DNA of 64,000 nt from Bryoerythrophyllum caledonicum (Eukaryota; Streptophyta; Bryopsida; Pottiales; Pottiaceae): assembly GCA_963971425.1 (NCBI GenBank), contig OZ020525.1, positions 9,531,560-9,595,559 on the forward strand, given 5' to 3'. This document shows, in pieces, positions 30,491 to 55,347 of this stretch. The position numbers and the translations under genes are program-made. Positions within the stretch are counted from its first letter, which is position 1, and every line of letters starts with the position of its first letter. Under the pieces are notes generated by a model. It was given only the letters and a program-made list of their open reading frames with translations. It made no database searches and was not told the origin of the DNA.

Positions 30491-30513
30491 AGCATCATGC
30501 ACTCTATAAGTTT

Positions 30514-32089: not shown

Positions 32090-32091
32090 TA

Positions 32092-32696: not shown

Positions 32697-32728
32697 AACA
32701 CGCAATTAAGCAATTATGCACTTAGCCA
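32697..32728 (+). repeat. Left terminal inverted repeat of the giant element
   Basis: Starts AACACGCAATTAAGC. TGCACTT and AAGTGCA just inside (about 32716-32734) form a 7-bp hairpin, which the right end also has. Confidence 0.85.
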
Positions 32729-32735
32729 AGTGCAC

Positions 32736-33375
32736 TAGTTGGTGGTAGACAGCCGCAAGTTATTTGCTCATAACTTTTTTTTAAATCAAAATTTGGCAAA
32801 AGTTTCGCATGTTTTCTGTCAAATTTTTTTGGTGTTTGTCGTGTTATACCTTGGCATCTTCATGTTCATATCAGTAGTATATTTTTTACATTTGCTACCC
32901 TTTTTTAAAAAATATATGATTTCTAATCTAGTTTACAAATCCTGCTACAAAATTATAATCATGTGCCCAAAGAGATTATAAATTTGTTATGAGTTATTAT
33001 AGGATTTTAGAGTAGTGCACTACAAATTGTACACACTACAATGTGTAAGAGTATACAAAAATATATATGCAATTTCCTAAGACAGTGTAAAGTACCTCAC
33101 TGTATTTTATAATGCAAAAACATACATAATCAAGCAATTCCACACTATTGCTGAGGAATTCTAAAATCAAACATATCATATGGACCACCCAATATATAAA
33201 TATATACCACCCACCGAACGATAGACACATCTCAAACTGCAGTATACTAACGTATTTGCCACCTAAACTGCGTGCATGCTCTACTATAGTATATAGCTCC
33301 AGGGCTCAGAGCTCATCTTCTCGCGGAACGACTCCCTCCACGTGTCCAATGGCGCTACCTACCATAGCGGACAGT
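32736..33375. other. Subterminal region of the giant element, no gene seen
   Basis: AT-rich, with 64-80 codon frames only. It lies between the left terminus and the 3' end of the minus-strand gene. Confidence 0.45.
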
Positions 33376-36033
33376 TCATGATCCCACATCTTCGATGCCA
33401 ATGGACGCACACTCAACATATCGGTAATTGCCAGGAACACCCTCCCGCGTATGCCTTATCCTATCATCATTGTAGAAAAAACCATCCTCTTGATTGAAGG
33501 ACATCTCTCGCTCTAACGAGAAGGCCCCCTGAAATGCAATGATGTCCTCGGATACGCTAGATCTTGGAACGGAAGGCAAACCTGGTCCGATATCACTCTG
33601 AGTACCTCCGAACGTCTCTTGTGTTTTCGATACAGGGTCTGTATGAGAAGGTATCGAAGGCTGTGGAATCCTCCTCTACACCGAAAAAAATTCCAATGAA
33701 TCCAATCCTTCTTCTTCCATCTCCAGCCTAGGACCATCAAATGTACGCCCCCCTCCTGCCCCTGCCGCCAAACCAACATCTACTACACGGGTATCTTGCA
33801 TCCTCTCTGTAGGTGTTGCAGACGTCTCCCCTGAAGTATTTCCCATCCCCTGCTGCGTTGATGGAATCCTCTCTCTTGGAAGAGACTGGTTCACTCCATC
33901 TTCATCGGCGTCTAAACCACTGCGAGATGAGAAATCGTCAATGGTACCTGAACGTGGCAATCTCTCATGTAAACCACCTCCATCCTCATTGTCGTCTTCA
34001 TTCTTCACTCCACCAACCGCCTCTTCGGTCTCAGGTACGATGTTGCAACCAGTACTTGTTCCACCAGTCCTGACCAACAGTTGTCCTTGGAAATTGTCGG
34101 ACAACTCATTGTACAGGAATGAAACTCTGTCTGTATAATCGTCAATGATGAAAACCTCAGATCCCCGGAAATCTCCTTCAAGGATCGTGGGAATGGCCGT
34201 AGATATGTTACACGCCACTAAACCCCAGCCACGGGGCAAGTAAGATCCCACTAGTCTTGCCAGCTCTGATGAAGATCTCTCAAGTGAATCAACTTCAGAG
34301 GGTTGGCGTGCCTCACTCCAATGATCCAAGAAAACAAGAGGAAGTGGAACGTCTCCAGAAACATAATTCGGGCCAGGAGATGTTCCCACAGGGTACTGCA
34401 TACAAATCACAACATCGCCAATCGGTTGTACTACTTGCTCCAGACGCCCATTCTCTTTAAAATCGAGAGCATAGGGAATAACCGAGTTCGGATCAAACGC
34501 CCAACATTCACGTCGCATAGTACATCCCTCTGGAAGCTTCACCTTCATGAAAAACTCTTCGTTGGCATACACGGCCGCTGGTAACAAGAAGATGATGTTC
34601 CATCGTTCAATGTTTGCCATCCATAATGACAGCTGTGCAAAAGCCGCGGATAACTTGGCGTCTCCCCAATGACCCTTTCCATGCCTTCCACCGCCACGTC
34701 GACAATCAATCACCCACAAACATGGTTTCCCCAACTCTATGTAGTCGGTGCAGAATAACCCTCTTCTACACCGAATCGGAAGAAGATTCTCTGTGTCGCT
34801 CTGGCCTGGCCTCTTGACTTCCATCTGCCATTCCCAATTAGCAGTAGCATGTCCTCCCACATCCACGGACAGTCCAATGTATCCACGCCCCCCTGCTGCA
34901 ATGTCACCATAATGAAACCTGATGGAAGGAGGGATGAGGTAGCCTATGTCTTCCAGCTCAGACACCTTCCCCCGCACAGGAGCAGTCCAAGCTTTTTTCG
35001 TGGTAGCATTCAAAAGCTTCCCAAAGGTATCAAGTTGTGCGTTACTCCTCGGAAAATACTTCCCTACACGGATACGGAAGAACTCCTCCATGGAATCAGG
35101 TGTACTTTCCTTGTTCTCCACCATCAACCAACGGATGGAATTGATGACAGCTTCTCGTCTCTGATATCGGTCACAAACACCGGCAATCGTACGAGGATGT
35201 GGATTCTTGTCTTTTACACCGTCGAAGTAGTATGCTTGACGAGGTCTTACTCCATCCTCCGTCACCGGCTTCGCTGCAGTAGACTTTGCCAACCGAAGAT
35301 AATATGGAATCGGAATCCTACCTAACGGCCTCAACCAATTCTGGGTCATCTCCTTTCTTGTTGGTCGTACGTCCACATTTGGATCCAGCTCTTTCTTCCT
35401 CGCCATGTCCTTCCACTTGTCCTCCTCCTCCTTGCTGTAAAAGATAATGCCGTTTTCGTAGTCCTTGCAGACTTGAATGATAGCTTCGAAGCAGTCATTG
35501 CTCGGATTCCATGCATGATTGGTCAGATCCTCCATGTTTTTGGCCAACCTCTTCACCGTGACAACTCCATCCCCTTTGGGCAACTTATGCACTGCACTTG
35601 CCGCACTCACCAAAGCAACAGCCCTGCGTGCATCGTCCGCACGTAGTGTGCTGTCAGGCCTCCCGTATAGATCCCAAATCTGATGGAGCTTCCTCAAATC
35701 CTCCTCCTTGATAGAATACGACTGTCTCTGGAACTCCGCCACGTTGATCCGCGCAGACTTCTCAATGTAAAAGCGACGATCATCATACACTACAAAAGAC
35801 GCCTCCCGCCGCTCGAACGTGTCCAGGTACTCATTTAAAGGCATAGTACCATCTCTCCACTGCTGTTGTGCAAACTTACAAGCTGCTACTATATATTGCC
35901 CATCCACGGGTTCCCAAATGATATGATCGTGAAGCCAAAAATACTGGGATCCAATAGCACCGATCTCTCCGACAGCGGGGTCCGGTCGGACGACTCGACG
36001 CATTTCGACGGCTGAGATCTCGCCGCGTCGCAC
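33376..36033 (-). pseudogene. Large protein of unknown family carried by the giant element (one in-frame TAG)
   Basis: An uninterrupted minus-strand frame of 785 codons runs to a TAG at 33676-33678, then stays open in the same frame for about 98 more codons to 33376. The most upstream codon is GTG; the first ATG is at 36003 (MRRVVRPDPAVGEIGAIGSQ). An N-terminal half rich in charged helices is followed by a block with WVIDCRRGGGRHGKGHWGD, IIFLLPAAVY, LVFLDHWSEARQ and SYLPRGWGLVACNIS. The beta-strand spacing vaguely recalls a Rossmann-type methyltransferase, but no catalytic motif is certain. The last ~150 residues are acidic, Ser/Gly-rich and probably disordered. I do not recognise the family. 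The frame's length argues for recent function; the single stop could be a mutation, read-through or a short unseen intron. Confidence 0.6.
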
Positions 36034-36039
36034 TTCGTC

Positions 36040-36190
36040 GAATCTGACGGTCCAGAAAACTTACTACGGCCTTCGGTAAATGCATTTTACCCCCCCCGGA
36101 CGCTGCGTCCGATGTGACGTCAAGACGTCCTCGTCCTAGGACGCCCTAGGACGCTCTCAGACCCCCAAGGACGTCGGATTGGTAACCCTG
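36040..36190 (-). promoter_or_regulatory. GC-rich palindrome cluster upstream of the large ORF (TGACGTCA, GGACGC repeats)
   Basis: A perfect TGACGTCA (36115-36122), GGACGCTGCGTCC, GACGTC and two CCTAGGACG words are packed in about 90 bases between the ORF and the gypsy LTR. TGACGTCA is a classic bZIP site, so this could be a promoter; it could equally be an exon or simple GC-rich debris. Confidence 0.35.
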
Positions 36191-37643
36191 GCCACAACAC
36201 ACTTGCTCCATCTTCTCTTCTCTTAAAGCCTCAAGTCTTCAATTCTTCCATCCTTCAACTCCAAAGTCTTCAAGTGTTCAAAAACACTAAGAAACTCAAA
36301 AGAAGTGTTCAAAAACACAACAGAAAAGTTTCACCAAGGCTGTAACCTTCAAACAAGTGACACCGATGACTCAAAACTTCAAATACTAAGTGTAATAGCT
36401 CTCTGGAAAGCTAATTCAGACAACTAACACTCCTCCAAATTTCAAGTCAATCTAAACTACTGTCCGAAAGATATACGAGTTCAAAGTTCTGCCCCTCCAG
36501 ATATTCAATCGCTCATAACTTCTTCTTCAAAACTCCAAATCTCAATTGTATTAACTTTTTGAAGAGCTATGACCATGGTTTACGCACCTTCCAATTCTCA
36601 AACAATTCCAAACTACTGTCCAAAAGTTATGGACAATCAAAGTTCTGCCTACCCCTATTCATTGAAATCTCTATAACTTCTTGCTCACAACTCCAAATCT
36701 CAATTGTGATATCTTTCTAGAAAGCTAAGATAGAGACGCATACACCCTCCAAATCTCAAATCAAATTGAGAACTACAGAAAAAGTTGTGGCTCCTCGAAA
36801 CCTCTGCCCCTCAATGGATGGGCTCGGGTTTTCACAGAATGAAAACCTCAATAACTTTTTCAGTACAACTCCGAATTCAAAATTTAAAACGAGTATGGAA
36901 AGCTCTTGAAACAAGGAACAAGATCACAAATTTTCAATTCCATATCATTCAACCTCAACGAGTTACACACAGTCAAAGTTCTGCTCCAAACCCTTGCTCT
37001 CTCACCCGCACTCACACACACACTCACTAAGGAATCTCTTTTCCAACTTTTCCACCTCAAGTGGACGTGGGCACTCCAGCCCATGTCACCCTACCCAAAG
37101 TACCCCACAAGCTACTTCATTACTTTTTTATCCTTTCCACTTTCAACCACATAAAATCCCCTAGTCTTTTATTTATTGGAAGACTAAAAACTTAGACCTT
37201 CCAACCAACAAGATAAGTAAAATAAAAAAATAACAAAATAAAAATAAAAATAAAACTTATCGTAAGATAGCTGATGGTACGGACGTATAAAGGTGTTGAT
37301 TCGCACAACCTGATCGCCAAGTCGTGGACTTGGTTGGCTGGAAATGTCGTGGTCAGTGGCTGCCGCCGGTCCGGGTTCGAACCCAATCGAGCCCGTCGAG
37401 TGGTTCGGCGGCCCACGGCTTGGCTCGCTAGTCAGGCAGGAAAAATACCAGTCAACCCGCTACCTACCCCCTTGAGCAGTGACAAGAACGGTGCAGCACC
37501 TATATGCTAACACCTGCCCAAATCCTCAAACCGTGGTTCTTACCACGACCAACCCCTTTTACCCCAACTCCTTATCTATTAAAATCCACACATATAAAGA
37601 CTAATACTTGTATGTACATGATGGAAGAATTTCCATCAGGACA
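36191..37643 (-). repeat. 3' LTR of the gypsy element (element on minus strand)
   Basis: 1453 bp. Read on the minus strand it starts TGTCCTGATGG. The inner end does not finish in the canonical CA: both LTRs end ...GTGTTGTGGC. Small open frames inside the LTR are non-coding. Confidence 0.9.
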
Positions 37644-37655
37644 TTCACCCTCTCT
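37644..37655 (-). other. Polypurine tract of the gypsy element
   Basis: On the minus strand AGAGAGGGTGAA directly precedes the 3' LTR start TGTCCTG. It primes plus-strand synthesis in LTR elements. Confidence 0.75.
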
Positions 37656-37686
37656 AAACCTGCACATCCTCTAGTATGTGCCAAGC

Positions 37687-38559
37687 TTAGTCATCCTCAC
37701 TATCTTGGTTGTCCTGAACTGCATCTTTTAAATCTTCATCTTCATCTTCAGCTTGGTTATTGTCCTCAAAATGTCGTGGATCGAGAATGTCCTCTAAGTC
37801 TTCAAGATGAAACCTGTCACTCCTTCGAAAGACTTTGATGCGTTTTCCAACCACTGGTATACGAAGAGAAACTCCATCTAACTCTCGAAGTGAATAAGTG
37901 TCATTGAGGTGCACTTTAATCACTACAGAGGGTCCAATCCATCTTTTTGCAAATTTCCGTACCGTGTTGTGTTGATGTTCCAATGTACTATCAAATACAA
38001 GGACCCAATCACCCTCTCTGATCTTCTTTCCCCTCAATCGATGTGTTTTGTCAAAGCGTTATTTGTTGTCCAATCTAGCAGCTTTCATCTTCTCCAAGGC
38101 TATCTCAAGGTCCTCAGGCAATCTTGCCAACTGCTGAATACGAAGCTCCAGCAGTCTTTCCCTACTGATGCCATCTTCCCATGAAAGAAACACCCATGTC
38201 GGCACATCTTCCTCCGCCGGCATGATTGGTTTTTGACCATACATAAGCTCCACGGGCATATAACCGGTAACAGTATTGTGCGTAGTTCTGTCAGCCCAAA
38301 GAGCAAATGGTAGCAGTTTTGGCCACAAGCTAGGCTTTCCTCTGCAAGCCTTGACTAAAGCATGAATGATTAGAGGATGTCCCCTCTCAATCTTGCCATT
38401 AGCCTCAGGGTTGTAAGCTGTTGTCAGCTTCAATTGCACACCATATCGCTTGAAGAATTCTTTGGCTTCAGTGGCGTTCAATTCTCCTCTGTCAGCTCTC
38501 ATCCGGCCAATGCTCCCATACCGACTAAAAATGTCTTCAAGTATAAACCCGGCATACAT
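37687..38559 (-). pseudogene. Gypsy integrase C-terminal half with GPY/F-type tail
   Basis: It continues the integrase core in another frame. RADRGELN holds the second catalytic Asp, and NPEANGKIERG the Glu, with 34 residues between them. After an in-frame TAA (38061-38059) the frame resumes with KKIREGDWVLVFDS and FAKRWIGPSVV, the GPY/F module that binds DNA or chromatin, and ends in an acidic tail. The first Asp is at the end of the preceding ORF (WMIDLVAMP), so a frameshift near 38540-38560 splits the catalytic triad. Confidence 0.85.
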
Positions 38560-40978
38560 TTTCTGTTGTCTTGGTCCTCAAAGCTCTTCCTTCAACAAAG
38601 TTTGAGAGCTCTTCTTGGGCCAAAACAAGGTACTTCATCCCCCACATTGCATTTGGCATGGCAACCAAATCGATCATCCATTGAAAATAGATTGCAATAG
38701 GATAAGTGGGATGCAGTTCATCTCTGTGCCGTACCTTCGATTGTAACTGGCACACCACACAAGAGGCTACAAACTCCTCAACATCTTTGTATAGCCCCTT
38801 CCACCAATACCGCTCCTTGACCTTCGTGTAGGTGGCCCAAATGCCTCTGTGACCGGCCCAAAGTGTATCATGAAACTCTTGTAAAATTTGGGTCTTGGTT
38901 AAAGAGTCTCCCACCACTCTTAATGGCACTTCACTAGCTCTTTTTGCCCTCTTCCATAGAAATCCATCTTTCAACAGATATCCATAAGACTGATGTCTTA
39001 TGTCTTTGAATGCCTTATCCGTCCAACTTCCTTGCCGCTCCATTGTGTTCAAGTAAAGCCCAATATCTCTCAGTTTTCCTTCGTACAGTTCATCCTTGAA
39101 AGGTAATGCTCTATTGGACGAACTTTCACCATCTATGTTCATCACATAGGCTCCGTGTAACAATTCTTCACCATGTTCGTGAGCCATCATCTCATCTTCT
39201 TTGAAATACCTTGCTCTAGACAACATATCGGCAACTGAATTCTTTTTGCCTTCAATGTGAACTAGAACAGGATTCAAAGACTTGATGTAGGCTATCCAAC
39301 GTAACATTGCAATGTCTGGTGAAGAACAATTTGTTATCATCCCCAGCAAAGGCAAGCAGTCAGTTTCTAAAACTACTTCCGCACCAATCAAGTAGTTTCT
39401 ATCCGCTTTTAGAGCTGTAAGGGCGCCCCAGAGTTCTCTTTTAACTTGTGGATAGGCCCTATGTCGCTCTGTCAAGATCCTTGCTCCAAATCGGATATCA
39501 AATCTCTTCCCTTCTTCATCATCTTGTCCAACAGCCCATCCAATTGCAATTGGACTCGTATCAATAGTTACAATCACCGGTCTTCCACAAGTATAACTCA
39601 CTTGTTTAAGAACTGATGGTGACTCCAAGATTCTCTTCAGCTCTATCATAGCTTGATCTTGCTCACATTGCCAAACGAATTTGTTCCTCTTGCGCAATAG
39701 CTTGTAAAGAGGTTCTGATATATGAACAAAATGAGGGATCCAAATTTGGTAGAAGACACAGGCTCCTAAAAACCTCCTTACTTCAGTGACATTGCTACAG
39801 GCCTTCATTCTTCCAATAGCATCCACCTTCTCAGGGTTAGGTTTTCTTCCATAAGAACCACACAAGTGTCCAACCACCAAAATCTCATCAACCCCAAACT
39901 TGGACTTCTCAATGGAGAGAGTCAAATTGACCTCCTCCAATTCGCTCAAGATTTTGGCCACATCTTCAATATGATTACTCACAAAGGCTCTGCAACCATC
40001 ATCTTGGATGGTCAAGTCTTTATCTTTCTCCTCGCACCCCTTCATGGGAATGTCATCCACAAAAGCTATGGTTTTCTGAGGCACAAAGTCTCTTAGGATT
40101 TGATTCATGGCGCTCTGCATATGTGCCACCGAGTTGGTAGCACCTTGAGGCAATGTACACATGCGTACTAATCCAAGTGGAGTTTTCATGGTTGTTAAAT
40201 CTCTGCTCTCAGCAGCTAATTGAAATTGATCATAACCAGAGTATAGATCTCCAATGGAATAAATTGCATGCCCCGCAAATGCTTCAGCTACTTCATCAAC
40301 AATAGGCCCTGAGCCTTTGTTTCTGATTGTCACTCCGTTTGCTGGCTGCATATCTTGAATGAACCTCAATGCTCCCGATTTCTTTGGTACTGTAAACCAT
40401 CGGTTGGAATATGGAGCCATCGAAGGCTCAAGTATGCCCATGCGTGTCTTTTCCTTAAGCAGCTCCACAAGCTTTGGAAGCAGAGCTCGAGGAACTGGAA
40501 TTGGCTTCAAATCCCATGGTATATGTGGTACTGTAAAAATAACCATTGGTGCCACAACACTTGGTTGAACGCACCCAATCTCATCTGGCGAAGAAGCAAA
40601 GGCTTTTCCATGCATAGAAAGCATGTCCTGAAATTTCTTCTTCTCCGGCTCAGTCAAGAAATCATCTCCTCCAATCTTCAAGTTTGTCAAAGTCTCTTTG
40701 GTGAACTTGTGTCCAATCCTTCTTGTTTCTCTCAAACTTGGCTCTTTCTCGGCTTGTTTGATATGATCATCAGTATCAGATGGTAGCTATGTAGCCACTG
40801 GCTTCACTTTCTTGGCCACAGTTTTATATTTTGTATAAACTGCAGCCTCCGGCCTTTGTCCATCAATTTTGAAGTCACACAACCTTGTCATTGCTGTTGA
40901 AATCTCATGATACATTGAACTTGTATGGACATTGACAATGCAATGAGTCTTCTCTTCATCCTTATCTGCCTCTAGATC
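38537..40978 (-). pseudogene. Gypsy polyprotein: reverse transcriptase, RNase H and integrase N-terminus
   Basis: The 732-codon open part starts at 40735, but the same frame extends upstream through a TAG (40789-40787) to a TAA at 40981-40979. Numbering from 40735: RT has Asp163 in SIGDLYSGYDQ, LPQG at 195-198 and the catalytic FVDD at 225-228. RNase H has Asp392, Glu434, Asp459 and Asp503 (NSVADMLSR). The integrase zinc finger is His622, His629, Cys659 and Cys662. The core begins with Asp689 before the frame is lost. RT and RH catalytic residues are all present. Confidence 0.9.
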
Positions 40979-41242
40979 TTACAAAGTCTGCAAGATATCA
41001 TCTAGCATTCCATTTTCTTCGTAAATACCAGAAATGCTTTCATCTCCCTCTACAACCTTCATCTTTTTAAGATTTTTCTCCATCTTTTTCACAAGCTTTC
41101 TACATACAGGGTCCAAGTCTTTGACACCCGTAAATCTTTCAAAGCCACACTTTGTCACACTTAAAAATCCACACTTAACACTAGTATGTACATTGGGGAA
41201 TCTACCAGTCTTAGTTCCCTTAGCACCCGTGGATCCCCACAT
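40979..41242 (-). pseudogene. Gag-pol linker segment, in pol frame
   Basis: 87 codons in the same frame as the reverse transcriptase ORF and in a different frame from gag. Lysine-rich and helical, with no catalytic motif. It ends in a TAA that separates it from the RT frame. It is probably the spacer between protease and RT. Confidence 0.55.
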
Positions 41243-41256
41243 CCCACGTGTGCCCT

Positions 41257-43716
41257 CTAGAAATCCGAGAAGTTCGTAGAAGTTGATAGAGGGATCTCTC
41301 TGAGTTGAAGTCGATGCCTCTCATTATCAGGCCTCACCGTTAAGAACTGCACTGACCTCTTTCCATCAACACTTCGGATACGGGCATAATGAGACCCGTC
41401 ATCCAACACTTTGGTCTCCATTCGTGAAGCGGTGATAAATGGTTGGCCCAAAATTATCGGATAGGCGCTAACATTTTGAACAAAGAAATTTTGTTCAACC
41501 TCTACATCTCCAATCTTCGTGAGTACTACAGGGCAAGCACCATGCAACCGAGTCCGTCCACTATTAGCTGCTCTCATGACCCAGCCATGGTCCGTGTCGA
41601 TTGGCCATTTGCCCTTCTCATAGACATTTCGAGATATTATGTTAATCTCTGAACCATGATCAACAAGGGCTAAAACATGGTCATCGATCCCTCCGAGTTT
41701 TATCTTTGTTTCAGTGGTGGCCCTAGCCCAAAATGGTAGATCGAACTCAATCTTCTTTTCATTTTCTTTCATGTTGGGAAGATCATAAGAGAATTGAAAG
41801 GTTCGCGCTTCCTCTTGTGAAACTTTTTCTTCTTGACCTATTGGCTCACCCATCATAGCAAATACCTCGCCAATCTCTGTCTCTTCATCTTCGGTCATGT
41901 GAGTATCTAAAGCTCTGACCATCACAGCCTCAGCTGTCATCTGCCTCTTCCTCTTGATAATGTCAATGATTAACTCATGGAAATCTTTCTTGGCTATGCC
42001 AAATGCTTCTCTCAATGTAAATTCGATCTTGGCATCTAAGATCCTTTCCTCCAATACCCCTTTCAGGTCAATAGAGGTCTCAATGTCTGACTGGAGCTTG
42101 TAAGCAGGCATTTTTCCCTTGACCTCGGTAGAGTCTCCTTTCTCTTCTCCTCTTTTGCTATCACTGGATTGTTTGCTTGGTCCATCCTTCTCTTTCTCTT
42201 TATTCCTCTCCCACCATTCCTTTGGTAACGGTGCATCACTAGGACGCACAGTATTAGGGTCCGTCGGCTTTGAACGTGTAGGAACCCTCTTTCTCATCTC
42301 CTTTGCAGGCTCATTCTGCACTGGAGATCTTCTCTTTGCTTCTGGCTCAACACCATCATCAACATCAAATCTTACACGTTTTTCTTCAACAGAGGCCTCG
42401 CGGAGCTCATCATTGTCCTTTTCTTCATACATAAATGCCCTGATGCTATTTGCATCAACTGGATCTTCCCATCCAGTTGCATTTCTGATGGCTTGAGTTC
42501 TTCTCTTCATTAATATTTGAGTTTGAACTGATAAAACTTTATCTGAATGGTGCTCGACTTGAATGTGGTAAGTATCAGCTTCATGCACTTGTATGTAGCT
42601 GGATCTTGCCATCTTCTCTTCCATGAGCTTCCTCATTCCTCCTCTTCCAAAATTGGTCCTCAATGGAGAATTTGTTGAGGCATCGTGAATCTTCCCATCT
42701 TTATAGTAGACATGAACATTCTTCAGTGCCTCTTCATACGATTCACAGCCTCTGAGATTGTGCTCAGTCTCCTCATCACACCAAACACACTTCCTTGAAT
42801 ATTTTCTCGCACCTTCGGATGGTTGGGAAGAAGAAGCTCCCCTAGCCTTCTTCAACTCAGTAAATTCCACCCTTAGCTCTCGAAAACCCTTAATAAGTTC
42901 TTCGAGAGCATTTCCTTCGGTGGTCTTGGTGGTCTTCGAGGTAGACCCCGGGTTTATCGATGGTGCTGGAGCAAAAGACACCTTCAAAGACTTTGGTTTT
43001 TGAATAGGCTCAGCATCAAATCTCCCTTCGACTCCTCTTGACCTCACGCGTTGTTGTTTGGCCAAAAGAATCACGGTCTCTTCTACCCTCCTCCAGTCAT
43101 TGGTAAAGCCACCTTCTGTGGTCCGGTCTCCTAGGAGTAGAAGAAGTCTGTCCTCCAATGCAACATCTATTGCTTGGAGAAAAAGCTCTGCCTTCCTGGA
43201 CTCAGGAAGGCGCCTCTCTGCCAAAGGTAATTGGATAAACTTCTTCTCGAAGTCTCTCAACAGCTCGTTGGGACCCATAGAGTTCCCTGGCCGTTGCTCC
43301 ACCCACTCAAGAAAAGATCTCTTTGTCATTCTCTCCAAATCTTCATCGAAATACTCATCCCGCAGTCGTTCAGCAAACTCCGCCCACGAGGTGACCAACT
43401 CGCGAATCTCTTGCACCCGGTCACGAATCTCAGGTACAACCGCCATGTCAAAAGTCCGCATCATTTGATTGTCTTCAACTTGATGCACCTCCATCTCGCA
43501 AACATAGGTTCGCAAGAACTTGGAGATATTCTTGCCGTTGAACCTTCCAATCTTGGAAACAACAGCCTTCAGAGCCTTCGTGGCACCTTGACCACCTTGG
43601 TTCGCTCTATGTTGTTCCATAAACATGGCCAATGCCCCTACAATATCCTCCATGCGAAATTGAACTCGACCGGTGCGTCTCCCACCGCCACCAGCAGCTC
43701 CTTCAAAGTCTCCCAT
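41257..43716 (-). CDS. Gypsy Gag-protease polyprotein
   Basis: This intact 819-residue frame starts at an ATG about 470 bases inside the 5' LTR. The capsid-like helical region (about residues 40-235) includes SKFLRTYVCEMEV and WAEFAERLRDEYF. A zinc-knuckle-like CX2CX5HX4C lies at Cys310, Cys313, His319 and Cys324. An acidic/basic linker follows. The aspartic protease comes near the C-terminus: ALVDHGSEINIIS with the catalytic Asp686, and ILGQPF near 755-760. The usual D-S/T-G is D-H-G here. Gag packages the RNA, and the protease would cleave the polyproteins in virus-like particles. It is the only undamaged ORF of the element. Confidence 0.9.
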   Translation of the reverse strand: MGDFEGAAGGGGRRTGRVQFRMEDIVGALAMFMEQHRANQGGQGATKALKAVVSKIGRFNGKNISKFLRTYVCEMEVHQVEDNQMMRTFDMAVVPEIRDRVQEIRELVTSWAEFAERLRDEYFDEDLERMTKRSFLEWVEQRPGNSMGPNELLRDFEKKFIQLPLAERRLPESRKAELFLQAIDVALEDRLLLLLGDRTTEGGFTNDWRRVEETVILLAKQQRVRSRGVEGRFDAEPIQKPKSLKVSFAPAPSINPGSTSKTTKTTEGNALEELIKGFRELRVEFTELKKARGASSSQPSEGARKYSRKCVWCDEETEHNLRGCESYEEALKNVHVYYKDGKIHDASTNSPLRTNFGRGGMRKLMEEKMARSSYIQVHEADTYHIQVEHHSDKVLSVQTQILMKRRTQAIRNATGWEDPVDANSIRAFMYEEKDNDELREASVEEKRVRFDVDDGVEPEAKRRSPVQNEPAKEMRKRVPTRSKPTDPNTVRPSDAPLPKEWWERNKEKEKDGPSKQSSDSKRGEEKGDSTEVKGKMPAYKLQSDIETSIDLKGVLEERILDAKIEFTLREAFGIAKKDFHELIIDIIKRKRQMTAEAVMVRALDTHMTEDEETEIGEVFAMMGEPIGQEEKVSQEEARTFQFSYDLPNMKENEKKIEFDLPFWARATTETKIKLGGIDDHVLALVDHGSEINIISRNVYEKGKWPIDTDHGWVMRAANSGRTRLHGACPVVLTKIGDVEVEQNFFVQNVSAYPIILGQPFITASRMETKVLDDGSHYARIRSVDGKRSVQFLTVRPDNERHRLQLREIPLSTSTNFSDF

Positions 43717-46139: not shown

Positions 46140-46590
46140 AACGCAACACTCAAAAAACCTGTATATCATTACAAAACGATAGTCACTATTAGTATGGAAT
46201 AAGATTTTTCTTTCATATATAGATTTTTTTCGCAAAGGCATGACAATTACATCAATAGATGATCATTTCACATGAATTGAAAATGTGTATTGATTTAGGG
46301 TAAGACCTTGATTTTAGGGACAATTGTTTTAATATGTTACTTTTTTTTCTATTTGCAAAAATTTGTGTACGTAGAACCAATACTATGGATAATTTGAAAG
46401 TCTAATATGTTAAGCAACAAAATGCATTATCTGTATCCTTCTAGAAACACTTCAAAGTTGTTCATTTTTATTGAAGACCAACTATTGAAAAATTAATCTA
46501 CTTCCATCTTCAACCCTAAATTCCAGTACTACTTCTCTTCCATTAAACACCCTTCATGTACTTGAAAAAATATATGAACAAATAACGAAT
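46140..46590. other. No recognisable gene
   Basis: AT-rich spacer upstream (in gene sense) of the minus-strand fragment. It could contain its promoter, but nothing specific is visible. Confidence 0.4.
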
Positions 46591-46592
46591 AT

Positions 46593-47540
46593 CATGTTGA
46601 ACCCCAAAGGTACCGTGATGGTTTCAAAAATAAACTTCAAAATCCTTGGTTCTAGTACAATGTATAAAAGAAAAAAATATCAGCTTTTATCTCTACTTTT
46701 GACCGTAGGATCTAAATTAAAACTTGTTAAATAACCCATTTACAAAATTCCATCAACTTTGACCGCCCCGATTGAAAGATTATAGTGTTTGAAACAAAAC
46801 AAATGGTTCATTTTATTCCCTATGTTTACCGGATCAAAAGACTTTGACTTCACTTTGTGTCAAATTTTTGCACTCCACAAGATCTAAATCCAATATCAAC
46901 GTGTTAAGCATGATCCTTTTAGTTTTGGTGAAATAGCATATTAATCCAAGTCAATCATTTTCACACATTGTCACACATTTTCGGCCAAGGTACCAAAAAA
47001 TCTTCTACATTTCCACATAAAACTTTGAGATCTTCATATCATTTACTTTTGATTTTTTCTATAGCATTATGTGTTGTAACCCATCTTATTGACCATTTGG
47101 ATTCTCATTTAAAACAATATCAAGTGCACAAAGATATATAACGCGAATTGAGATTTTTTAAACCTCCACTCATTGCGCAATTTTTTTGAATATGCTACAC
47201 TCCTTATCTACCTCTGAAATTTGGTATGTATGGAACTAACATCATGCCTAACATTATGGTAATTGATTGAGACCTTTTTTAGTGCAAAAATTTGACACCA
47301 ATTGAAGTCAAAGTCTGCTGATCCAATAAACGCAGGGAAGAAAATGAACATTTTCTCTACTTCAAACATTATAATCTTTCAATCCGTGCGGTGAAACTTT
47401 ATGAAATTTTTGAAGTATACTACTTAATAAGTCGTTATTGAGATCCTACGGTTAAAACTACAAAAGAAATCTTTATTTTTTCTTCCTTGCTAATTGCACA
47501 AAAACAAGCAATTTTAACGATTTTTGGTTGAGATATTCTC
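46593..47540. mobile_element. Foldback derivative of the TTAA MITE family
   Basis: About 310 bases at the left (ACCCCAAAGGTACCGTG... to AAGCATGATCC) and about 270 at the right (from GTGCAAAAATTTGACACC) are inverted copies of the same MITE end. Between them lies a reversed MITE interior (46905-47270). A normal copy has two different subterminal regions, so this is a rearranged, palindromic form. The terminal TTAA has decayed. Confidence 0.6.
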
Positions 47541-47565
47541 CACATCATTTATGGACCAAGGTACT

Positions 47566-47705
47566 GTGGGTATCAATAGTGCGGGTATCACCACCAGGGT
47601 ATGACTTCCTGAGTACCAATACCCGGTTTTCAATCAGGGTATCAACCTAGGGTATCAACTTAGGGTTTCGGTTTAGGGTTTTGTATTTGCGGGTATCAAT
47701 GAAGG
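47566..47705 (+). repeat. Dispersed GGGTATCA motif cluster
   Basis: GGGTATCA or GGGTATGA occurs about six times in 140 bases, with a TTTAGGGTTTTG telomere-like word among them. Irregular spacing argues against a simple tandem repeat. Confidence 0.5.
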
Positions 47706-47742
47706 ACATCAATTCATTGCACCATTGGGTAGTTGTATGAGG

Positions 47743-47760
47743 GGTGTGCGCGTGCACACC
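47743..47760. repeat. Near-palindromic GGTGTGCGCGTGCACACC
   Basis: An 18-base alternating purine-pyrimidine near-palindrome with Z-DNA-forming potential. A perfect version stands at 48368-48385 on the other side of the assembly gap. Confidence 0.7.
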
Positions 47761-48061
47761 CCAGGCAGTTGTGAGGAAGGCTGAGTGTGAGAGCCTAGGG
47801 TTTGGAGGAGAGAGGGGAATGGAGGGGAGGTGAGAGAGAATTTGAGGGTGGGAGGGAGCCGCCTCGGCTAGGGTTTAGGTGGGAGGAGAATATGAGCGTG
47901 TGAGAGGGTTTGGGTGGGAGGAGAATGGAAGGCGAATGTGAGGAGAATGTGGGTGGGTTTAGGTGTAAGAAATGAGGGTTTGGGTGCAAGAAATGGGTGG
48001 GTGAGTGAGAGAGGGAGGCCAGCCTCCGCGGCAGGCCGCAGGCAGCCTCCCTAACAGGCCA

Positions 48062-48261
48062 NNNNNNNNNNNNNNNNNNNNNNNNNNNNNNNNNNNNNNN
48101 NNNNNNNNNNNNNNNNNNNNNNNNNNNNNNNNNNNNNNNNNNNNNNNNNNNNNNNNNNNNNNNNNNNNNNNNNNNNNNNNNNNNNNNNNNNNNNNNNNNN
48201 NNNNNNNNNNNNNNNNNNNNNNNNNNNNNNNNNNNNNNNNNNNNNNNNNNNNNNNNNNNNN
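48062..48261. other. Assembly gap (200 N)
   Basis: Exactly 200 undetermined bases, possibly a fixed-size placeholder. The flanks are G-rich (GGGAGGGAGCC-type) on the left and hairpin-prone. Open frames crossing it are meaningless. Confidence 1.
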
Positions 48262-48367
48262 GCTGCGTTCCTACGTTGTGTCAAGGAAGGGGAGGTGGGA
48301 TGGAGGTGAAGATGAAGGATGTTTTGGACGACATTTTCGGAGATGAAGGATGGAGCTGCAGGTGGAG

Positions 48368-48385
48368 GGTGTGCGCGCGCACACC
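48368..48385. repeat. Perfect 18-bp palindrome GGTGTGCGCGCGCACACC
   Basis: Perfect dyad of alternating purine-pyrimidine, partner of the motif at 47743-47760. The pair may be ends of a unit that contains the gap. Confidence 0.75.
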
Positions 48386-48475
48386 TCTGGTCTACGAGCT
48401 TCATGGGATCGTCTAGGACTCTATGGGAACGCGGCCACTAGGGTTTGACTTTTTAGGGTTTGTGTTATTGGTTGC

Positions 48476-48580
48476 GGCGGCTAGGGTTTGGGTTGTAGGT
48501 TGCGGCGGCTAGGGTTTGGGTTGTAGGTTGCGGCGGCTAGGGTTTGGGTTGTTGATTGTGGCGGCTAGGATTTGAGTTAG
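48476..48580 (+). repeat. Tandem repeat of ~28 bp, about four copies
   Basis: GCGGCGGCTAGGGTTTGGGTTGTAGGTT-type units, each with a TAGGGTTT word; the last copy is diverged. Confidence 0.75.
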
Positions 48581-48599
48581 GTTGGCGGTTTTTTCTACA

Positions 48600-49600
48600 T
48601 GGCTGCTAGGGTTTAGCTTTGTGGGCTGGTGTGCATAGCTACAGTCACAGATTAATTGTCACGCTATGGACTACCTCACCGTTTTAATTCTCAGTGGTTT
48701 TGAAGCCAACATTTCAGTACTATGCTGTGGACTGCACTCAGTAGTTAATGGCTATTATCATGTATAAGTACTGGACTTCTAATGGATTTGAAATTTTAGA
48801 GATATTGAAGTTGGTGTATTTATTTCTGTGATCAATGATTGCCTCACCTCATTCTATCGTATTGACCTATACTTTGAGTTTCCTAGTTTTGATTCTGCAA
48901 TGAGACAGAGTTAGAGAAGCTTACCAAACTCGCGTGATTTGCCTTGAAGCTCCACTTGTCTCCTCCAATCTACACACCACACAAAGCTAATTGTAATTAG
49001 CAAATGAACTAATGAAGACACTTGGTTTTGATGTTGCAATTTCAGGAGAGCTCACCTTTGAAAGTGGGAAGAGAAGTGAGCATTTAGGTTTGTATGGAAA
49101 CCTTATATGCACGTTGAAACCTTGTGCCTCAAGTTGAACAGTCCAATTTTGACTTCTGGACTTTGGAAATTTTACTTTGTTTTCTATTTGTTTACTTTTA
49201 ACTTATTACATTAAATTATTCTGGTATATAAAATATACCAATACTTGGGAGTTTTCATCGCGTAGTTTCAACAAAGCATTGTATAAATTTTATGCAGGTT
49301 CCGCAAGTAGGAAAGAGTGGAAGAGCATGTCTACCAACAGTAGGGGAATGGTGATTTAATGTTAAGCGCCATCAAATATCGGTGCTTGTATCGCTAATAC
49401 TTGCAACGTATCTTGAGGTGAGAAATTATACTTGCAACATATTTTGAGGTGAGAAATTACTTTGTTATTCATTTTTGGAATTGATTCCCTATCGATCTTT
49501 TGTTTTGTGTTGTTAGAATGAACTACATTTGGAATTAGAAATCCTTTCTTGTATTAGCCGTTGTAACAACTTTCAATGGTGTCAATAATAACAAGTAATA
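48600..49600. other. No recognisable gene
   Basis: Part of the giant-element interior. Only one 60-codon frame (49177-49359) and no motifs. It could hold regulatory or intronic DNA of the plus-strand gene at 51.6 kb. Confidence 0.4.
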
Positions 49601-49602
49601 TT

Positions 49603-50212
49603 ATTTCTACATTAACCCAAGTCAATCATTTGCCCATATGATCACGCATTGTAAGGCAAGGAACCAAAAAAACTTCTTCTTTTCCACATAAAACTTAGAG
49701 ATCTTTTTATTATTTTCATTTTATTTTCTCTCTCAAATGATGTGGTATAAACCTTCTCTTTCACCATAATACATACGGATTTTCATTCTAAGACATGGTT
49801 ACGTCACAAAAAAATAAAGCGCAACTTGGTAAGTTTTGAATCTCTACCCCTTCTACAATGGTTTCGAATATGCTACACCCCTTTTAAACCTCTAAAAATT
49901 CATGTAGAAGAATATAACATCATCATTAATATAATGGTAATGAACTTAAACATTTTGTAGTGCAAAGACTCGACACCAAGTAAAGTCAAAGAAAATTCCC
50001 CTCAACCTAGGAAAGAAAGTTAACCGTGTTGTCTACTTCAAACTTTCATCTTTCAATTCGTGTGGTCAATCTTTATACTTAATAAATATGAACTAAGGTC
50101 GTACGCTTAGACGTATCCATAAAACCTTTTTGTTTCCCACTTTACTCATGGCAATAGAATGAACGGTTTTGAAGAGATTTTGTTGTGGAAATGCTTGTCC
50201 TTTAGGGATTAA
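49603..50212 (-). mobile_element. TTAA MITE copy E, truncated
   Basis: Reverse-orientation family member ending CCTTTAGGGATTAA. Its TTAA is shared with the start of copy D, as when one copy inserts at the edge of another. The outer part is missing. Confidence 0.65.
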
Positions 50213-51137
50213 TCCCTAAGAGACCAAGTGTACGTAAGGGGTACGTTTTAGATCTTGAGCAGGTTACTAAAATTCTAAACTAAATTTTTAAATAATTTTT
50301 TTTATTATACTAGATTGTCCCTGATAAGAGCTCCATGGAGATATTTTTAATTTGCTTTTTGGATTCATGGTGTGAAAGTTAGTACCACTGAAAGTTAGAA
50401 ATGGGGACTCCGGGGAGCTCTAAAATTTTGCTGAGAGTCTCTATTGACATTGAGATTTTCCATACAAGTAGATAATATTACCTTCTTTTAAAATTAAAAA
50501 AAATCTTGTCTGTAGTGTAAAAAATAATTTTAATTGAAGTCTAACATTTTTACACCTTTCGGGCAAGCGGGGAAAAAAACTTATTCATTTCTACATAAAA
50601 CCTAGGGATCTTCATATTTTTTACTTTTTATTTTTTCAACAAGAATATGTGGCATAAACCTTCTTATTGACCGTTTGGAATATCATTCTAAAACACATTA
50701 AATTCTCAAAAGAATATATTGTGAGTTGACAATTTTTGAACATCCACTCCTTGCACACTTGTTTTGAATATGCTACAACCTTTTTCTACCTCTGAAAATT
50801 GGTGTAGTGGGAACTAACATCATGCTTATCACAATGGTAAAAGATTTAGACCTTCTGTAGTGCAAAAATTTAATACAAAGTCAAATCAAAGTTTGCTGAT
50901 CCACTCAACGCACGGAACATAATCAACCATTTTCTTGACTTGAAACACTATAATCTTTCAATCCGTGTGGTCAAAGTATATGAATTTTTTTGAGTATGTT
51001 ACTTAGTAAGTCTTGATGGAGATCCTACGGTCAAAAGGATAAATTTAAGGTTTTATTTCTTTCCTTATCCATTGCACTAGAATGAATAATTTTGAAGTGT
51101 TTTTGGTGTGAAATTGTCACGGGCTTTTAGGGGTTAA
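50209..51137 (-). mobile_element. TTAA MITE copy D, complete (929 bp)
   Basis: Starts TTAATCCCTAAGAGACC and ends GCTTTTAGGGGTTAA. TTAA lies on both sides. The right flank (GTAACATACTC...) is the interior of yet another family copy that has TTAAGTAATAC at the matching place in copy A, so D inserted into an internal TTAA. Confidence 0.75.
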
Positions 51138-51420
51138 GTAACATACTCACAAAGTTTCATAAAATTGACCGCACGGTTTGAATTTTTTTTATTTTTATAG
51201 TAGACAAAATTGGTTCATTTTTCCCCTAAATTGAGTCGATTACCGAAATTCTACTTTACTTGGTTTCAAAAGTTTGAATACATAGGGTCTAGATTCATTA
51301 CCATTATGTCAAGAATGATATTAGTTCCTTGTACATCAATGTTTAGGGATGGAGAAGAAGTGTAGCATATTGGAAGAGACTTTGCAAGGAGTTGACGCTC
51401 TTCAAATATTAAATTTTTTC
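51134..51420 (+). mobile_element. TTAA MITE copy H, fragment
   Basis: Forward-orientation fragment matching about 14008-14275 of copy A (tracts ACAAAGTTTCA, TGTAGCATATT). Its left ~120 bases are not present beyond copy D. Confidence 0.6.
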
Positions 51421-51589
51421 ATTTCAAAGAAGTTCATCAAAAGGTTTAGTATCATCATCATGTGATGAACACTATATATGTGATCAGAAACATATCTTAT
51501 ATCAGATGAATGGTGCTTTAGAGGTTAACAATTAGTATATGTATTTTGACTAATGTGCAACTATGATGTTTTTTTTTTCAATAGTGATA

Positions 51590-52659
51590 ATGGAGAGCCC
51601 CTCGATTCAGACTCCTTCGATACGGCCACACATCCAAAGGTGTAATATGCTTTCCACTAGCTCTATAGGGGCTCGATTAGAACGAGCAGCGCGTGCAAGG
51701 CAAATTCAACAGAGATCTGTTGGGATCATGACATCTGAATTGGAAAGGACAGTAGAATTGCTTTCTGAAAGAGAAGATGTGGTGGGCTTAACAACCAGGG
51801 AGCATGCATTCAAAAGTGGCATGGAATTGAATGGGTCGAAGTTGTTCCCATTTGAAGTGGCGGTGCGTATCACTAGGGTAGATGATGCATTGCATTGGAC
51901 CGGAGAGATTGTAGGAGAACGCCTTGGCATGTGTGTGGGCTTGATCATTCGTTGGCCACGATCTTTGCTACGTGTAGTGGCTGTAGAACCTGATATTATA
52001 AGAGTCCATGGGGACATTGGATCACAGATAGCCCCTACACAAATGATGGCCCCAGAATTTGATTTTCCCGAGTTCATCAACATACGAGGATCCACCGAGA
52101 GGTCTCGACGTAGTAGTCAAGCTTCAAACGCCATTGATGGAAATTCGCCGTTTTCCCAGCCTACTCCTTCAAACATCCAAGATTTGCCCCATGTAGATGG
52201 ATTTGTTTACGTTAGACTAGCACGCCGTCCCTATTCCATGCAAAATAGGAAAAGAAGAGTTTCAAGAGAGCCATCATTGACAGAAGCTGCACCATCAAAG
52301 GTATCACTTAGAAATGTGCAAATTGCAATAGCACAAGGAGGATGCAAACACAATTGTTTGCGGGACGTTCCAGCTAGGTATCTATTGGACATGCGATATA
52401 ATGCATGGGCTACTGAATTTTCAGTTCGAAGTGCGTGGATGAGACAGATGCTGGTTTATTTTTACACAAGGACGGAAGGAACTCGTCGAGACAAGTTTGT
52501 AACAAAGTTAGATGGGAAAGAAGTTTGCAATGCTTGCTACGCTCTTGGGGTTGGATATTCACAGAGGCGTTTAAGCAATTGAAGAAGGACTGTCTAATAT
52601 ATGGAAGAGTGACATCGATTCACGGCAATACCCTTTCAGATCCGATAAGAGAGTACTAG
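51590..52659 (+). pseudogene. N-terminal half of the DUF7869-like putative transposase, frameshifted
   Basis: The ATG at 51590 (MESPSIQTPSIRPH) follows a pyrimidine tract and CAATAG that look like a splice acceptor. An upstream ATG at 51563 in the same frame is less likely. The frame holds HWTGEIVGERLGMCVGLI, a Ser-rich linker, and then RDVPARYLLDMRYNAW, RSAWMRQMLVYFY and GKEVCNACYALGVGYS. The last resembles the cysteine-containing block that precedes the catalytic domain in DUF7869-type proteins. At about 52566 the coding sense moves to another frame (TEAFKQLKKDCLIYGR...), then returns near 52660. Both shifts together imply two small indels or an unusual short intron. Confidence 0.6.
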
Positions 52660-52660
52660 A

Positions 52661-54778
52661 ATGTCTGTAGCAGAGGCTTGTTTTAAATCGTTTGTCGATG
52701 AAGCTGGTTGTCCTCAACCTCATCGTTGTATTCGCCGTAAGAGTGACAACGAAGTGATGCCTCTCATTCTCCTTCCTATGAATACAGCCAAATTTGATGT
52801 ATTCAAATACGTGAATGAGGAGGTCGAGAGAATTTGTAATGGAGAAACCATTTCTATGAGTTCGTTCCGGAGGATGTGGCGCATTAAGTATTCCCACGTT
52901 CAGGTACCTCCATTCTCGAGATTCTCAAAGTGTTATCATTGTTGGGAGTATAAATGTGCCATGGAGGGAACCACCAATGCGGATGCAAGGATAAAGATAA
53001 AGGAGTTGATTATGTTGCATCTGCGCAACCAGATGGAAGAACGTAGGCATTATTGGATATTCAAGAGGTCGTGTTATATTAGCCCTGAGTTGTACATGTG
53101 CATCATAGTAGATGGCATGGACCAAAACACGACCATGGTACCGAGGATGCGGCAAACTGTAAAGAACATTGAACACCGGTTTGTGAAGACCCATCTGTGT
53201 GGTGCTCTTGTAGATGGGATTGGTTTATATTGTGACGTGTGGTTTGGGGCTCACCACAAACACGATAGCAATCAAGTCATGAGTACATTGTTGTACGTGA
53301 TTGGAGATGTGCTGCGGAGGAGGGGCTTTTTGCCACCAACACTGCGAATTCAGGCCGACAACTGCACCCGTGAGAACAAAAACACTTATATGTTTGCTCT
53401 ATGTGCTACACTGGTGGGATTGGGGTTTTTTCAGGAGGTGGAACTATCTTTTCTTATAGTGGGCCATACCCACGAAGATATTGATCAACGTTTCAGTTGT
53501 ATATCAAATACGTTGAAGAGGTCGGACGTGGACTCGTTGAAGGAAATGATTAGTCTTATAGAACGAGGAACATCTCCTACGGAGGCATTCGTTAGCGCTC
53601 GGCTGCTAGAGAATGTATGGGATTGGAAATTGTTCATAACTCCTCACTTACTGACAGGTCAGGATTCATTGGTGGGCATAACATTTACGCACCACATGCG
53701 ATTTTATATGGACAATCGAGAAGGAACTCATGAGGTTCGAGTACAACACAAGCATTATTGCAAGGATCCATGGGGACCGGAGGCAGGGACGAAAACTTTG
53801 AGGTCGTTGCCAAATAGGGATGAACGACCATCGTTTGCGGAAGTATTTGCAGCGGACGAACGGAAGTTGAAGGCATTGGATGACTTCATTGCATCTAAAC
53901 AAAGGTGCATTCAAAGGTTGCAGCATGAGGACAAGAATCGTGAAGCAAAAGTAGAGGCTGAAAGATTGAAACTCTATTTAGCTCAATTTCCACACAAAGA
54001 CCGTAGCAATGAGCATCATACCTCACCGTTTTGGCCTTCAGATTTCACCAACACCGGACGTACAGAGAGTGCATCTTTAGATGTAATGGATGGTGCAAGT
54101 GAAGAAAATCGCGAGATAAATGTCGTAGAGCAGGTAGTGGCCATGCTTCCAAATGCCGAGGCTCGAGGATACTTTGGTCCTCGTAGAGGAAGACCCTCTA
54201 ATCAAGCAGTGCGTAGGGCACAACAAACAGAGCGCAACTGTGTTGAGGAACGCGCCGAAGAAAGAGCAATGTATGAAGGTAATCATGACCCATTTCCACC
54301 ATTTAATCCACAATCTGATATCCATTGTGGACAGTTTGTAGCCTTGAGTGTTGATCGAGCAGAGATAGAAGTCGGTGTACCATTCTATGTGGGGAAAGTG
54401 ATTGAGGAAGGAAAAAACCGATGGAGACTTATGATAAAGGTTTGTTGGTATTGGCCCATCATCCAAAGGGGGGTTGCTGATGGACATGGGTCTTCTGCAC
54501 AACGGTTTGCAAATTGCATGGACTCAATCTGGGAGCCATCTGGGGAGAGTCATAGTTGGGTAGAGAAAGATGCATGCATTTTTTCATGGGTAGACTCTTT
54601 GGAAAGAACCATGTCCGGAGCCAACGGGTGGAGAAAGCGCAATGTATTTGGAGTGCAGGTTGAAAGCAGGATTCGCATTCTTCAATCGGCAAAGGCTCAC
54701 ATCCTACAATATATTGCAATGCAAATCGAAGCTATAGATGACGACCGTTTGCAAGCAGCCCTAAATTCTATGGAGTAG
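52661..54778 (+). CDS. DUF7869-like putative DDE/D transposase, catalytic half
   Basis: 705 codons without a stop. Residues 91-99 form CYHCWEYKC, a possible zinc ligand set. The core follows: IIVDGMDQNTTMVP (Asp151/Asp154), THLCGALVDGIGLYCDVWFG, then LRIQADNCTRENKN (Asp233) and FLIVGHTHEDIDQRFS (Glu272/Asp273/Asp275). Regularly spaced acidic residues after beta-strands suggest an RNase H-like nuclease; the DNC..ENKN and VGHTHEDIDQ blocks are what I recall of DUF7869 proteins of transposon origin. A coiled-coil-like stretch (about 395-445) and an AT-hook-like RRGRPSN (about 505) follow. It sits 540 bases from the right end of the giant element, where an element's transposase is expected. The start at 52661 is probably internal to a longer original gene. 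Confidence 0.65.
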   Translation: MSVAEACFKSFVDEAGCPQPHRCIRRKSDNEVMPLILLPMNTAKFDVFKYVNEEVERICNGETISMSSFRRMWRIKYSHVQVPPFSRFSKCYHCWEYKCAMEGTTNADARIKIKELIMLHLRNQMEERRHYWIFKRSCYISPELYMCIIVDGMDQNTTMVPRMRQTVKNIEHRFVKTHLCGALVDGIGLYCDVWFGAHHKHDSNQVMSTLLYVIGDVLRRRGFLPPTLRIQADNCTRENKNTYMFALCATLVGLGFFQEVELSFLIVGHTHEDIDQRFSCISNTLKRSDVDSLKEMISLIERGTSPTEAFVSARLLENVWDWKLFITPHLLTGQDSLVGITFTHHMRFYMDNREGTHEVRVQHKHYCKDPWGPEAGTKTLRSLPNRDERPSFAEVFAADERKLKALDDFIASKQRCIQRLQHEDKNREAKVEAERLKLYLAQFPHKDRSNEHHTSPFWPSDFTNTGRTESASLDVMDGASEENREINVVEQVVAMLPNAEARGYFGPRRGRPSNQAVRRAQQTERNCVEERAEERAMYEGNHDPFPPFNPQSDIHCGQFVALSVDRAEIEVGVPFYVGKVIEEGKNRWRLMIKVCWYWPIIQRGVADGHGSSAQRFANCMDSIWEPSGESHSWVEKDACIFSWVDSLERTMSGANGWRKRNVFGVQVESRIRILQSAKAHILQYIAMQIEAIDDDRLQAALNSME

Positions 54779-55315
54779 ATAGTGTGCCTTTTTGAGAGTA
54801 TACTAGTTGTGTATGGTAATTGATAGTGTATGTGTAAGAGTAGTATATTCTAAGGGTGATGTAAGACGTTATGTCATTAATCCTTTAGAGTAAACCTGTG
54901 TTTACTATTGGTGCTAAGTCCAATTGTTGAAGCATCTATATTTAGTTTTCACCATTGTATACATTATGTACTATGTAGAATATCTTTTAATCAACTGTCA
55001 ACCCTTGCATAAAATATGTTCTTTTGTAATTACGCCTGTTTATATACTATAATCCTTCAAATCTATCTTTGAAATATTGTGAAACTATATTAAATACACA
55101 TTTATCTAGTATTAACGAGGGGCCACCACAAATTAGTTGAGAATGCCAAAAAATTGCTTCCCATATGAACAACCATGATTGTACGTAATATTGTTGCAGA
55201 AGTTCAATTTTTTTTCCTTTGGAAAATATTTGTTTTCTTTGATTTTTTAATTTTTTTTCCAATTTTGCCACTTTTGTTCGCAATGGCCGCCGTTGTACCC
55301 AAGTGCACTTTTAAA
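54779..55315. other. Right subterminal region of the giant element
   Basis: AT-rich, no gene. Likely 3' untranslated region and polyadenylation signals of the putative transposase. Confidence 0.45.
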
Positions 55316-55347
55316 TGGCCAAGTGCATAATTGCTTAATTGCGTGTT
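55316..55347 (-). repeat. Right terminal inverted repeat of the giant element
   Basis: Ends ...GCTTAATTGCGTGTT, the inverse of the left end. AAGTGCA/TGCACTT form a hairpin here too (about 55301-55327). Confidence 0.85.

Follow-up and report, generated by a model that had tools for sequence, protein, structure and literature searches.

A broken copy of an abundant two-gene DNA transposon, probably of the Sola type, in the moss Bryoerythrophyllum caledonicum

What kind of mobile element occupies the 22.65 kb between positions 32697 and 55347 of a 64,000-nucleotide stretch of Bryoerythrophyllum caledonicum DNA (assembly GCA_963971425.1, contig OZ020525.1, positions 9,531,560 to 9,595,559; hereafter the window), and which of its genes could move it? 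Our analysis suggests that the unit is a broken copy of a large, abundant, two-gene cut-and-paste transposon with a DUF7869 transposase, most likely of the Sola type and perhaps Sola1, a reading to which we assign a probability of roughly 0.8. The insertion itself, the copies found elsewhere in the genome, the two genes and the alternatives to this reading are considered in turn.

Results

A single insertion splits a TTAA MITE

The initial annotation had described a unit with inverted ends, flanked by TATG and lying within a miniature inverted-repeat transposable element (MITE), and had taken this as evidence for one transposition event; these points were all borne out. The whole copy, which includes a nested Gypsy element and a gap of 200 N, was delimited at 32697–55347 by its terminal inverted repeat pair, its target site duplication and the empty site. 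End-to-end comparison placed the left terminal inverted repeat, which begins AACACGCAATT, at 32697–32728 on the plus strand and the right one at 55316–55347 on the minus strand; the two are identical at 27 of 27 bases and at 31 of 32 overall. TATG lies directly outside the left end at 32693–32696 and directly outside the right end at 55348–55351. A search with the 27-mer terminus, allowing up to three mismatches, returned just two sites in the window, which are the two ends, and 100 shuffles gave a mean of 0.00.

Alignment to the empty site defined a left remnant of the target MITE of about 62 bp (32635–32696, minus strand) and a right remnant (55348–56241, minus strand), with aligned intact MITEs at 13871–14824 and 61369–62327, both on the plus strand, serving as references. 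The empty site was rebuilt by a script that joined the flanks, removed one TATG and aligned the product to the intact MITEs. The rebuilt site matched 14824–13871 over 954 columns at 93.6% identity with 2 gaps and 62327–61369 over 959 columns at 93.0% identity with 7 gaps, and the junction was crossed in both alignments, in which the two MITE halves are collinear with the intact copies at 93–94%. The target MITE has termini of the TTAA type (TTAACCCCTAA...TTAGGGGTTAA) and may belong to the Kolobok or piggyBac group. Because the ends are inverted, TATG stands on both sides and the empty site can be read in intact MITEs, the segment 32697–55347 is a single DNA transposon insertion into a TTAA MITE.

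Interior of the window copy

The size of 22.65 kb originally attributed to the unit holds for its span and its ends but is overstated for the transposon, because a nested Gypsy long terminal repeat (LTR) retrotransposon takes up 9.45 kb of it. This element (36191–45643, minus strand; recognized by its domains and LTRs) sits within the left gene as a later insertion and is not part of the transposon. Its LTRs, at about 36191–37643 and 44190–45643, are 99.1% identical, and an integrase zinc-binding domain detected by Pfam at 38537–40786 belongs to it. Without the Gypsy element, the window unit measures about 13.2 kb, and six other full-length copies (F1–F6) are 12.5–13.0 kb each. The nesting gives the order of events as MITE, transposon and then Gypsy element. 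A DUF4100 match was also seen in the first long open reading frame (ORF) of the Gypsy element, on its gag side (41257–43737).

Self-comparison and copy comparison revealed diverged relatives of the target's TTAA MITE family in the middle part of the unit (46594–51400). As stretches of this part are common to other copies, the MITE relatives have been carried along with the transposon. The sequence has an assembly gap of 200 N at 48062–48261, and gaps of 200 N also occur in the middle part of F2 and F6; therefore, this part may be hard to assemble.

Further copies in the genome

A genome search of the kind that the initial annotation had proposed recovered further copies, which have 4-bp duplications of other sequence and carry the same pair of genes. 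In the assembly searched (437,360,962 bases in 894 contigs), the 27-mer terminus with at most two mismatches occurs 941 times in the forward and 970 times in the reverse orientation, and the reversed control gave 0 and 0. Chance repeats are ruled out by these zero controls together with the shuffles. From about 100 listed of the 1911 sites, we chose 14 further elements whose convergent ends are separated by 3.7 to 13 kb. Of the 15 elements made up of these 14 and the window copy, 12 have a perfect 4-bp duplication, with tetramers that differ between copies, and the imperfect duplications of S2, S5 and S6 are each off by one base. In the longest aligned stretches, F4 is 89–92% alike to the other full-length copies. 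The shorter elements (S1–S8) span 3.7–6.0 kb, and most of them have the end segments of F4 plus parts of its middle; S5 and S6 have almost only one end, and the two resemble one locus that is present twice in mirror orientation.

The exact 27-mer on the 65-Mb contig C1 is found mostly at 0–13 and 53–65 Mb, among the matches listed. Contigs C5 and C13 are absent among the matches listed in several genome searches. The assembly also contains at least 58 matches to the chlorophyll a/b binding family and at least 32 to the expansin C-terminal family, which point to a probable land plant as host.

State of the two genes

Two divergent coding regions, one of them without a known family, had been proposed for the unit. 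The divergent pair was recovered and the left protein indeed matches no family, but the right one contains DUF7869, and neither gene is intact in the window copy. The middle part of the left gene (33676–36060, minus strand; supported by its ORF and by copy comparison) is a frame of 794 codons from stop to stop, in which matches to other copies start at codon 18–32. Remains of its 5′ part, 92% identical to F4, lie beyond the Gypsy element at 45646–46209 on the minus strand. In addition to being split by the Gypsy element, the left gene meets a stop that falls 129 codons short of the end of the F2 frame. The right gene (51554–54778, plus strand; supported by its ORFs and by comparison with F2) is broken into frames at 51554–52582 and 52649–54778, with four stops between codons 342 and 364. 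Because both window-copy genes are broken, the evidence for a working unit is drawn from other copies.

Both frames are open in F2 (C2:3492886–3505923, about 13 kb), in which the 200-N gap lies between the genes. The left gene of F2 (L034:1883–5824) comprises 1341 codons from stop to stop and encodes 1314 amino acids from MAPPNID, a second Met being present 10 codons upstream, and the right gene has 1066 open codons, or 1063 amino acids from Met. None of the other full-length copies among F1–F6 was seen to have both long frames. Matches to the right gene number at least 63 (63 scored of 4140 candidates), comprising the window and 62 others at 93–95% identity; the matched part is stop-free in 48 of the 63, and 41 of the 63 also have an open frame of more than 1000 codons. 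The left gene likewise has at least 57 matches (57 scored of 1752 candidates), which are 90–93% identical besides the window itself.

We determined the ratio of nonsynonymous to synonymous substitution rates (dN/dS) by the Nei–Gojobori method. For the right gene, 14 of 15 pairs gave 0.11–0.25; the remaining pair, of near-identical sequences, gave 3.06 because it contains very few changes. For the left gene, the values were 0.24 between F2 and L041, 0.37 between F2 and the window, and 0.38 between the window and L041, and the fourth pair, F2 and L066, was saturated. The low ratios fit past selection for function in the history of the copies.

The right protein as a probable DDD-type transposase

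The Pfam domain DUF7869 (PF25273) lies at 53177–53728 on the plus strand and is the proposed DDD catalytic core. The right protein matched it with 168.4 bits, the cut-off being 26 (E = 1.7e-49), and it was the sole Pfam family above cut-off in the right proteins scanned; sub-threshold Pfam rows in relatives of the right protein had E values of 0.06–0.18, none of them a transposase. When ten right proteins with 35–94% identity to that of F2 were aligned, D509, D512, D591, D631 and D633 were invariant in 10 of 10 and E630 was present in 9 of 10. The RNase H fold has a characteristic strand–helix order with catalytic acids at usual positions. The predicted secondary structure, with strands at 503–509, 517–519 and 532–534, a helix at 561–579, a strand at 585–591, a helix at 596–611, a strand at 617–623 and a helix at 637–643, fits that order, and the acids would fall near the usual positions. 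We infer with fair confidence that the right protein is a DDD-type transposase, mostly because of the conserved acids and because it is encoded between mobile ends.

Further library searches returned only weak rows: one each in NCBIfam and PHROGs, at E values of 0.075 and 0.093, and rows of E 0.12 or worse against the PDB by sequence, which were taken as chance. PF25273 was found in 0 of 14 control genomes, a result that says little on eukaryotes because the sole named control is a cyanobacterium. A limited text search of the literature found no mention of DUF7869 or PF25273.

The left protein

No family was found for the left protein in Pfam, NCBIfam or, by sequence, the PDB; one row from phmmer (E 0.7) and some single-member rows from Pfam (E 0.039–0.14) were taken as chance. 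Its 44% relative L066 retains the stretches WEPVDGQH and LWVIDCRRGG. DGQH-like stretches occur in ParB-like domains, and we regard the VDGQH stretch as a lead only. The protein has no DPPY-type motif. That it might be a DNA-binding helper is a guess, because no family matches it and its structural model is unusable.

Related lineages keep a divergent gene pair

Searching the assembly with PF25273 gave at least 150 matches (150 scored of 3612 candidates), among which are lineages with ends of their own. The E53 lineage (C1:3201200–3215100) encodes a right protein of about 36% identity and has its own terminus, AACACCGGTTYCGTTAAAA, with the duplication AATA/AATA (1 of 1). On the opposite strand it carries a homologue of the left gene, matched at 31% and 24% identity (E = 5e-21 and 1e-12). 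Its terminus, with at most one mismatch, occurs 24 + 16 times in the genome (control, 0). Four convergent E53 pairs, on C1, C6, C9 and C706, have ends 10.4–12.7 kb apart; by the listed gene matches, three contain both genes and the C6 pair contains a left gene. A second group, the AACATGG family, has right frames of 1087 codons and the terminus AACATGGAATTCGCTAAATATGCACTTGGCC, which occurs 64 + 68 times in the genome (control, 0), and perfect 4-bp duplications were present in 10 of 10 pairs taken from the listed sites at a convergent spacing of 7.8–17.3 kb. The terminus of a third group is AACATGCAATTAAGC, and the start common to the known ends is AACAY. A terminus for the E54 lineage, guessed from one copy, was not used.

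For the arrangement of the two genes, all listed matches were counted and merged when less than 3 kb apart on the same strand, giving 172 right and 137 left matches. The nearest left match lay within 15 kb for 60 right matches, of which 58 were divergent, 2 on the same strand and 0 convergent. The other 112 right matches had no left match within 15 kb among the matches listed; the window pair is counted here because the Gypsy element puts its genes 19 kb apart. An earlier pairing on a picked subset (52 of 150 right and 67 of 85 left matches), in which 31 right matches had a left match within 30 kb and 31 of 31 were divergent, is superseded by this count.

Target preference and end motifs

Target flanks were sampled at the first 30 ends listed, all on C1 and some of them belonging to the same element. 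Beyond the 4 bp, position −7 is C in 18 of 30, position −6 is A in 16 of 30 and position −5 is C or T in 24 of 30. With the base composition of the window, the uncorrected chance of at least 18 C in 30 is 2e-6 and that of at least 16 A is 0.005. From these counts, we infer an insertion preference for ACAY beside the 4 bp. Moreover, the motif AAGTGCA has two occurrences near the left end and three near the right end in all six full-length copies and in the window copy, and these repeats are possible binding sites.

Other elements in the window

A Tc1/mariner-like element lies at 29308–32092 and has a DDE_3 frame at 30840–31523. Its inverted arms of about 580 bp are 98.6% identical and hold 178-bp tandem units, and its ends are CAATAGGG...CCCTATTG with TA outside. 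Remains of a hAT-like transposase were found at 10850–12906 as two long frames, of which the second matches Dimer_Tnp_hAT. An Rfam scan of the window gave 0 matches.

Discussion

Comparison with Sola and other superfamilies

Sola elements are described with a DDD transposase, 4-bp duplications, repeats of 11–1124 bp and, in some cases, sizes above 15 kb (PMC10741241), and as found in the moss Physcomitrella (PMC10741241, PMC9033089). Likewise, the elements described here have 4-bp duplications (12 of 15 in the window family, 10 of 10 in the AACATGG family and 1 of 1 in E53), terminal inverted repeats whose length falls within the printed range, a large size and a moss as host. With its invariant acids and a weak model, the right protein would be compatible with a DDD transposase. 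Sola2 elements of amoebozoa are reported with AT-rich 4-bp duplications (PMC3627910). The closest parallel in gene content is Sola1-1_Ec32 of Ectocarpus, a 21.5-kb element with a gene for a 1104-amino-acid ParB-like and DNA methyltransferase protein opposite the transposase (PMC12477816). Both elements carry a big second gene that runs opposite to the transposase gene, a probable one in the present case, whereas the left protein here has no family match to set against the ParB-like and methyltransferase accessory.

Other superfamilies share the short duplication and differ in further respects. Academ elements resemble the present ones in the 3- or 4-bp duplications of AcademX (PMC10045372), but AcademH and AcademX have a helicase or nuclease, and Pfam found none in our two proteins, where a diverged one could escape detection. 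Ginger1 and Ginger2 make duplications of 4 or 4–5 bp (PMC10045372); however, they are characterized by similarity to Gypsy integrases (PMC10741241), and the nested Gypsy element is the only place where integrase-type domains were found here. Kolobok and piggyBac agree in the 4-bp length but duplicate TTAA (PMC9587614), in contrast to the variable tetramers found here, and these TTAA superfamilies are ruled out by TATG and the other tetramers. Mutator, with a duplication of 7–12 bp (PMC10741241), is excluded by the 4 bp seen here.

Proposed mechanism

We propose that the right protein would bind the termini, excise the element and join it at staggered cuts 4 bp apart, favouring ACAY adjoining the 4 bp. 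The left protein could be a DNA-binding helper, possibly with a ParB-like part, that is kept for transposition or for evasion of silencing. Shorter elements with the same ends, as well as broken copies with intact ends such as that of the window, might then move in trans.

Weighing the alternatives

Several observations weigh against a Sola-type transposon with a DUF7869 transposase and a paired second gene. The assignment to Sola, made by anatomy as described in print, is a probable one. The structural model of the right protein is weak (mean predicted local distance difference test score (pLDDT) of 52.7; predicted template modelling score (pTM) of 0.35), and Foldseek found no match to it in the PDB at E 0.001 (best, 0.033), with low TM-scores and without display of the aligned model residues. 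Among the 50 listed Foldseek rows, 40 named Argonaute or SPARTA, SPARDA and SPARHA proteins, none of them significant, 8 were unrelated and 2 carried no telling name; Argonaute-type proteins contain an RNase H-like fold. The model of the left protein failed (pLDDT 38.1). Moreover, the 60 paired matches include the two on the same strand, and in the lineages E51 and E54 the 9–10 kb upstream of the right gene showed no left gene; left-gene candidates lie 26 kb away in E54 and, for the 1087-codon family, 14 kb away in a different member.

It is conceivable, if less probable in our judgement, that DUF7869 is the transposase of a separate superfamily unrelated to Sola and defined by AACAY ends, a duplication of 4 bp and a second gene that is obligatory. 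Such a superfamily would agree with DUF7869 being the sole Pfam family above cut-off in the right proteins, with its absence from the limited literature search and with the divergent second gene in 58 of 60 paired matches; against it, what is printed for Sola (PMC10741241) agrees in the 4-bp duplication, the length of the repeats, the size and the plant host, and a Sola1 element with an accessory gene on the opposite strand has been published (PMC12477816). We put forward only tentatively that the AACAY ends mark an undescribed superfamily whose second gene stays divergent from the first and is required for transposition or escape from silencing. The roles of the two proteins might also be exchanged, with the left protein as transposase and the DUF7869 protein as helper, since the left gene is likewise long, widespread and low in dN/dS. 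This is improbable given that the invariant acids in RNase H order belong to the right protein and that family and sequence searches gave no such sign in the left one, whose model is unusable.

An endogenous virus or Polinton-like element using inverted repeats would account for the large size, the inverted repeats and the big genes, yet it is very hard to reconcile with the remaining data: outside the Gypsy element, the scanned frames gave no Pfam match to a viral gene, the right protein has no relatives in viral contigs or phages, a BFVD fold search gave none at E 0.001, and the duplication is of 4 bp, not the 6 bp given for Polinton (PMC10045372). Least credible of all is an assembly artefact in which unrelated solo ends were joined over the 200-N gap within the unit, as the TATG copies match, the MITE halves are complementary, and F1, F3, F4 and F5 have no gap and the same structure as the window copy. 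A two-gene transposon, most likely of the Sola type, thus remains the reading that we prefer.

Significance

This reading suggests a function for DUF7869, a domain of unknown function in Pfam, and a second orphan protein is tied to the same mobile unit. As there are many copies, one of them with both genes open, what an accessory gene does for a giant transposon is directly testable.

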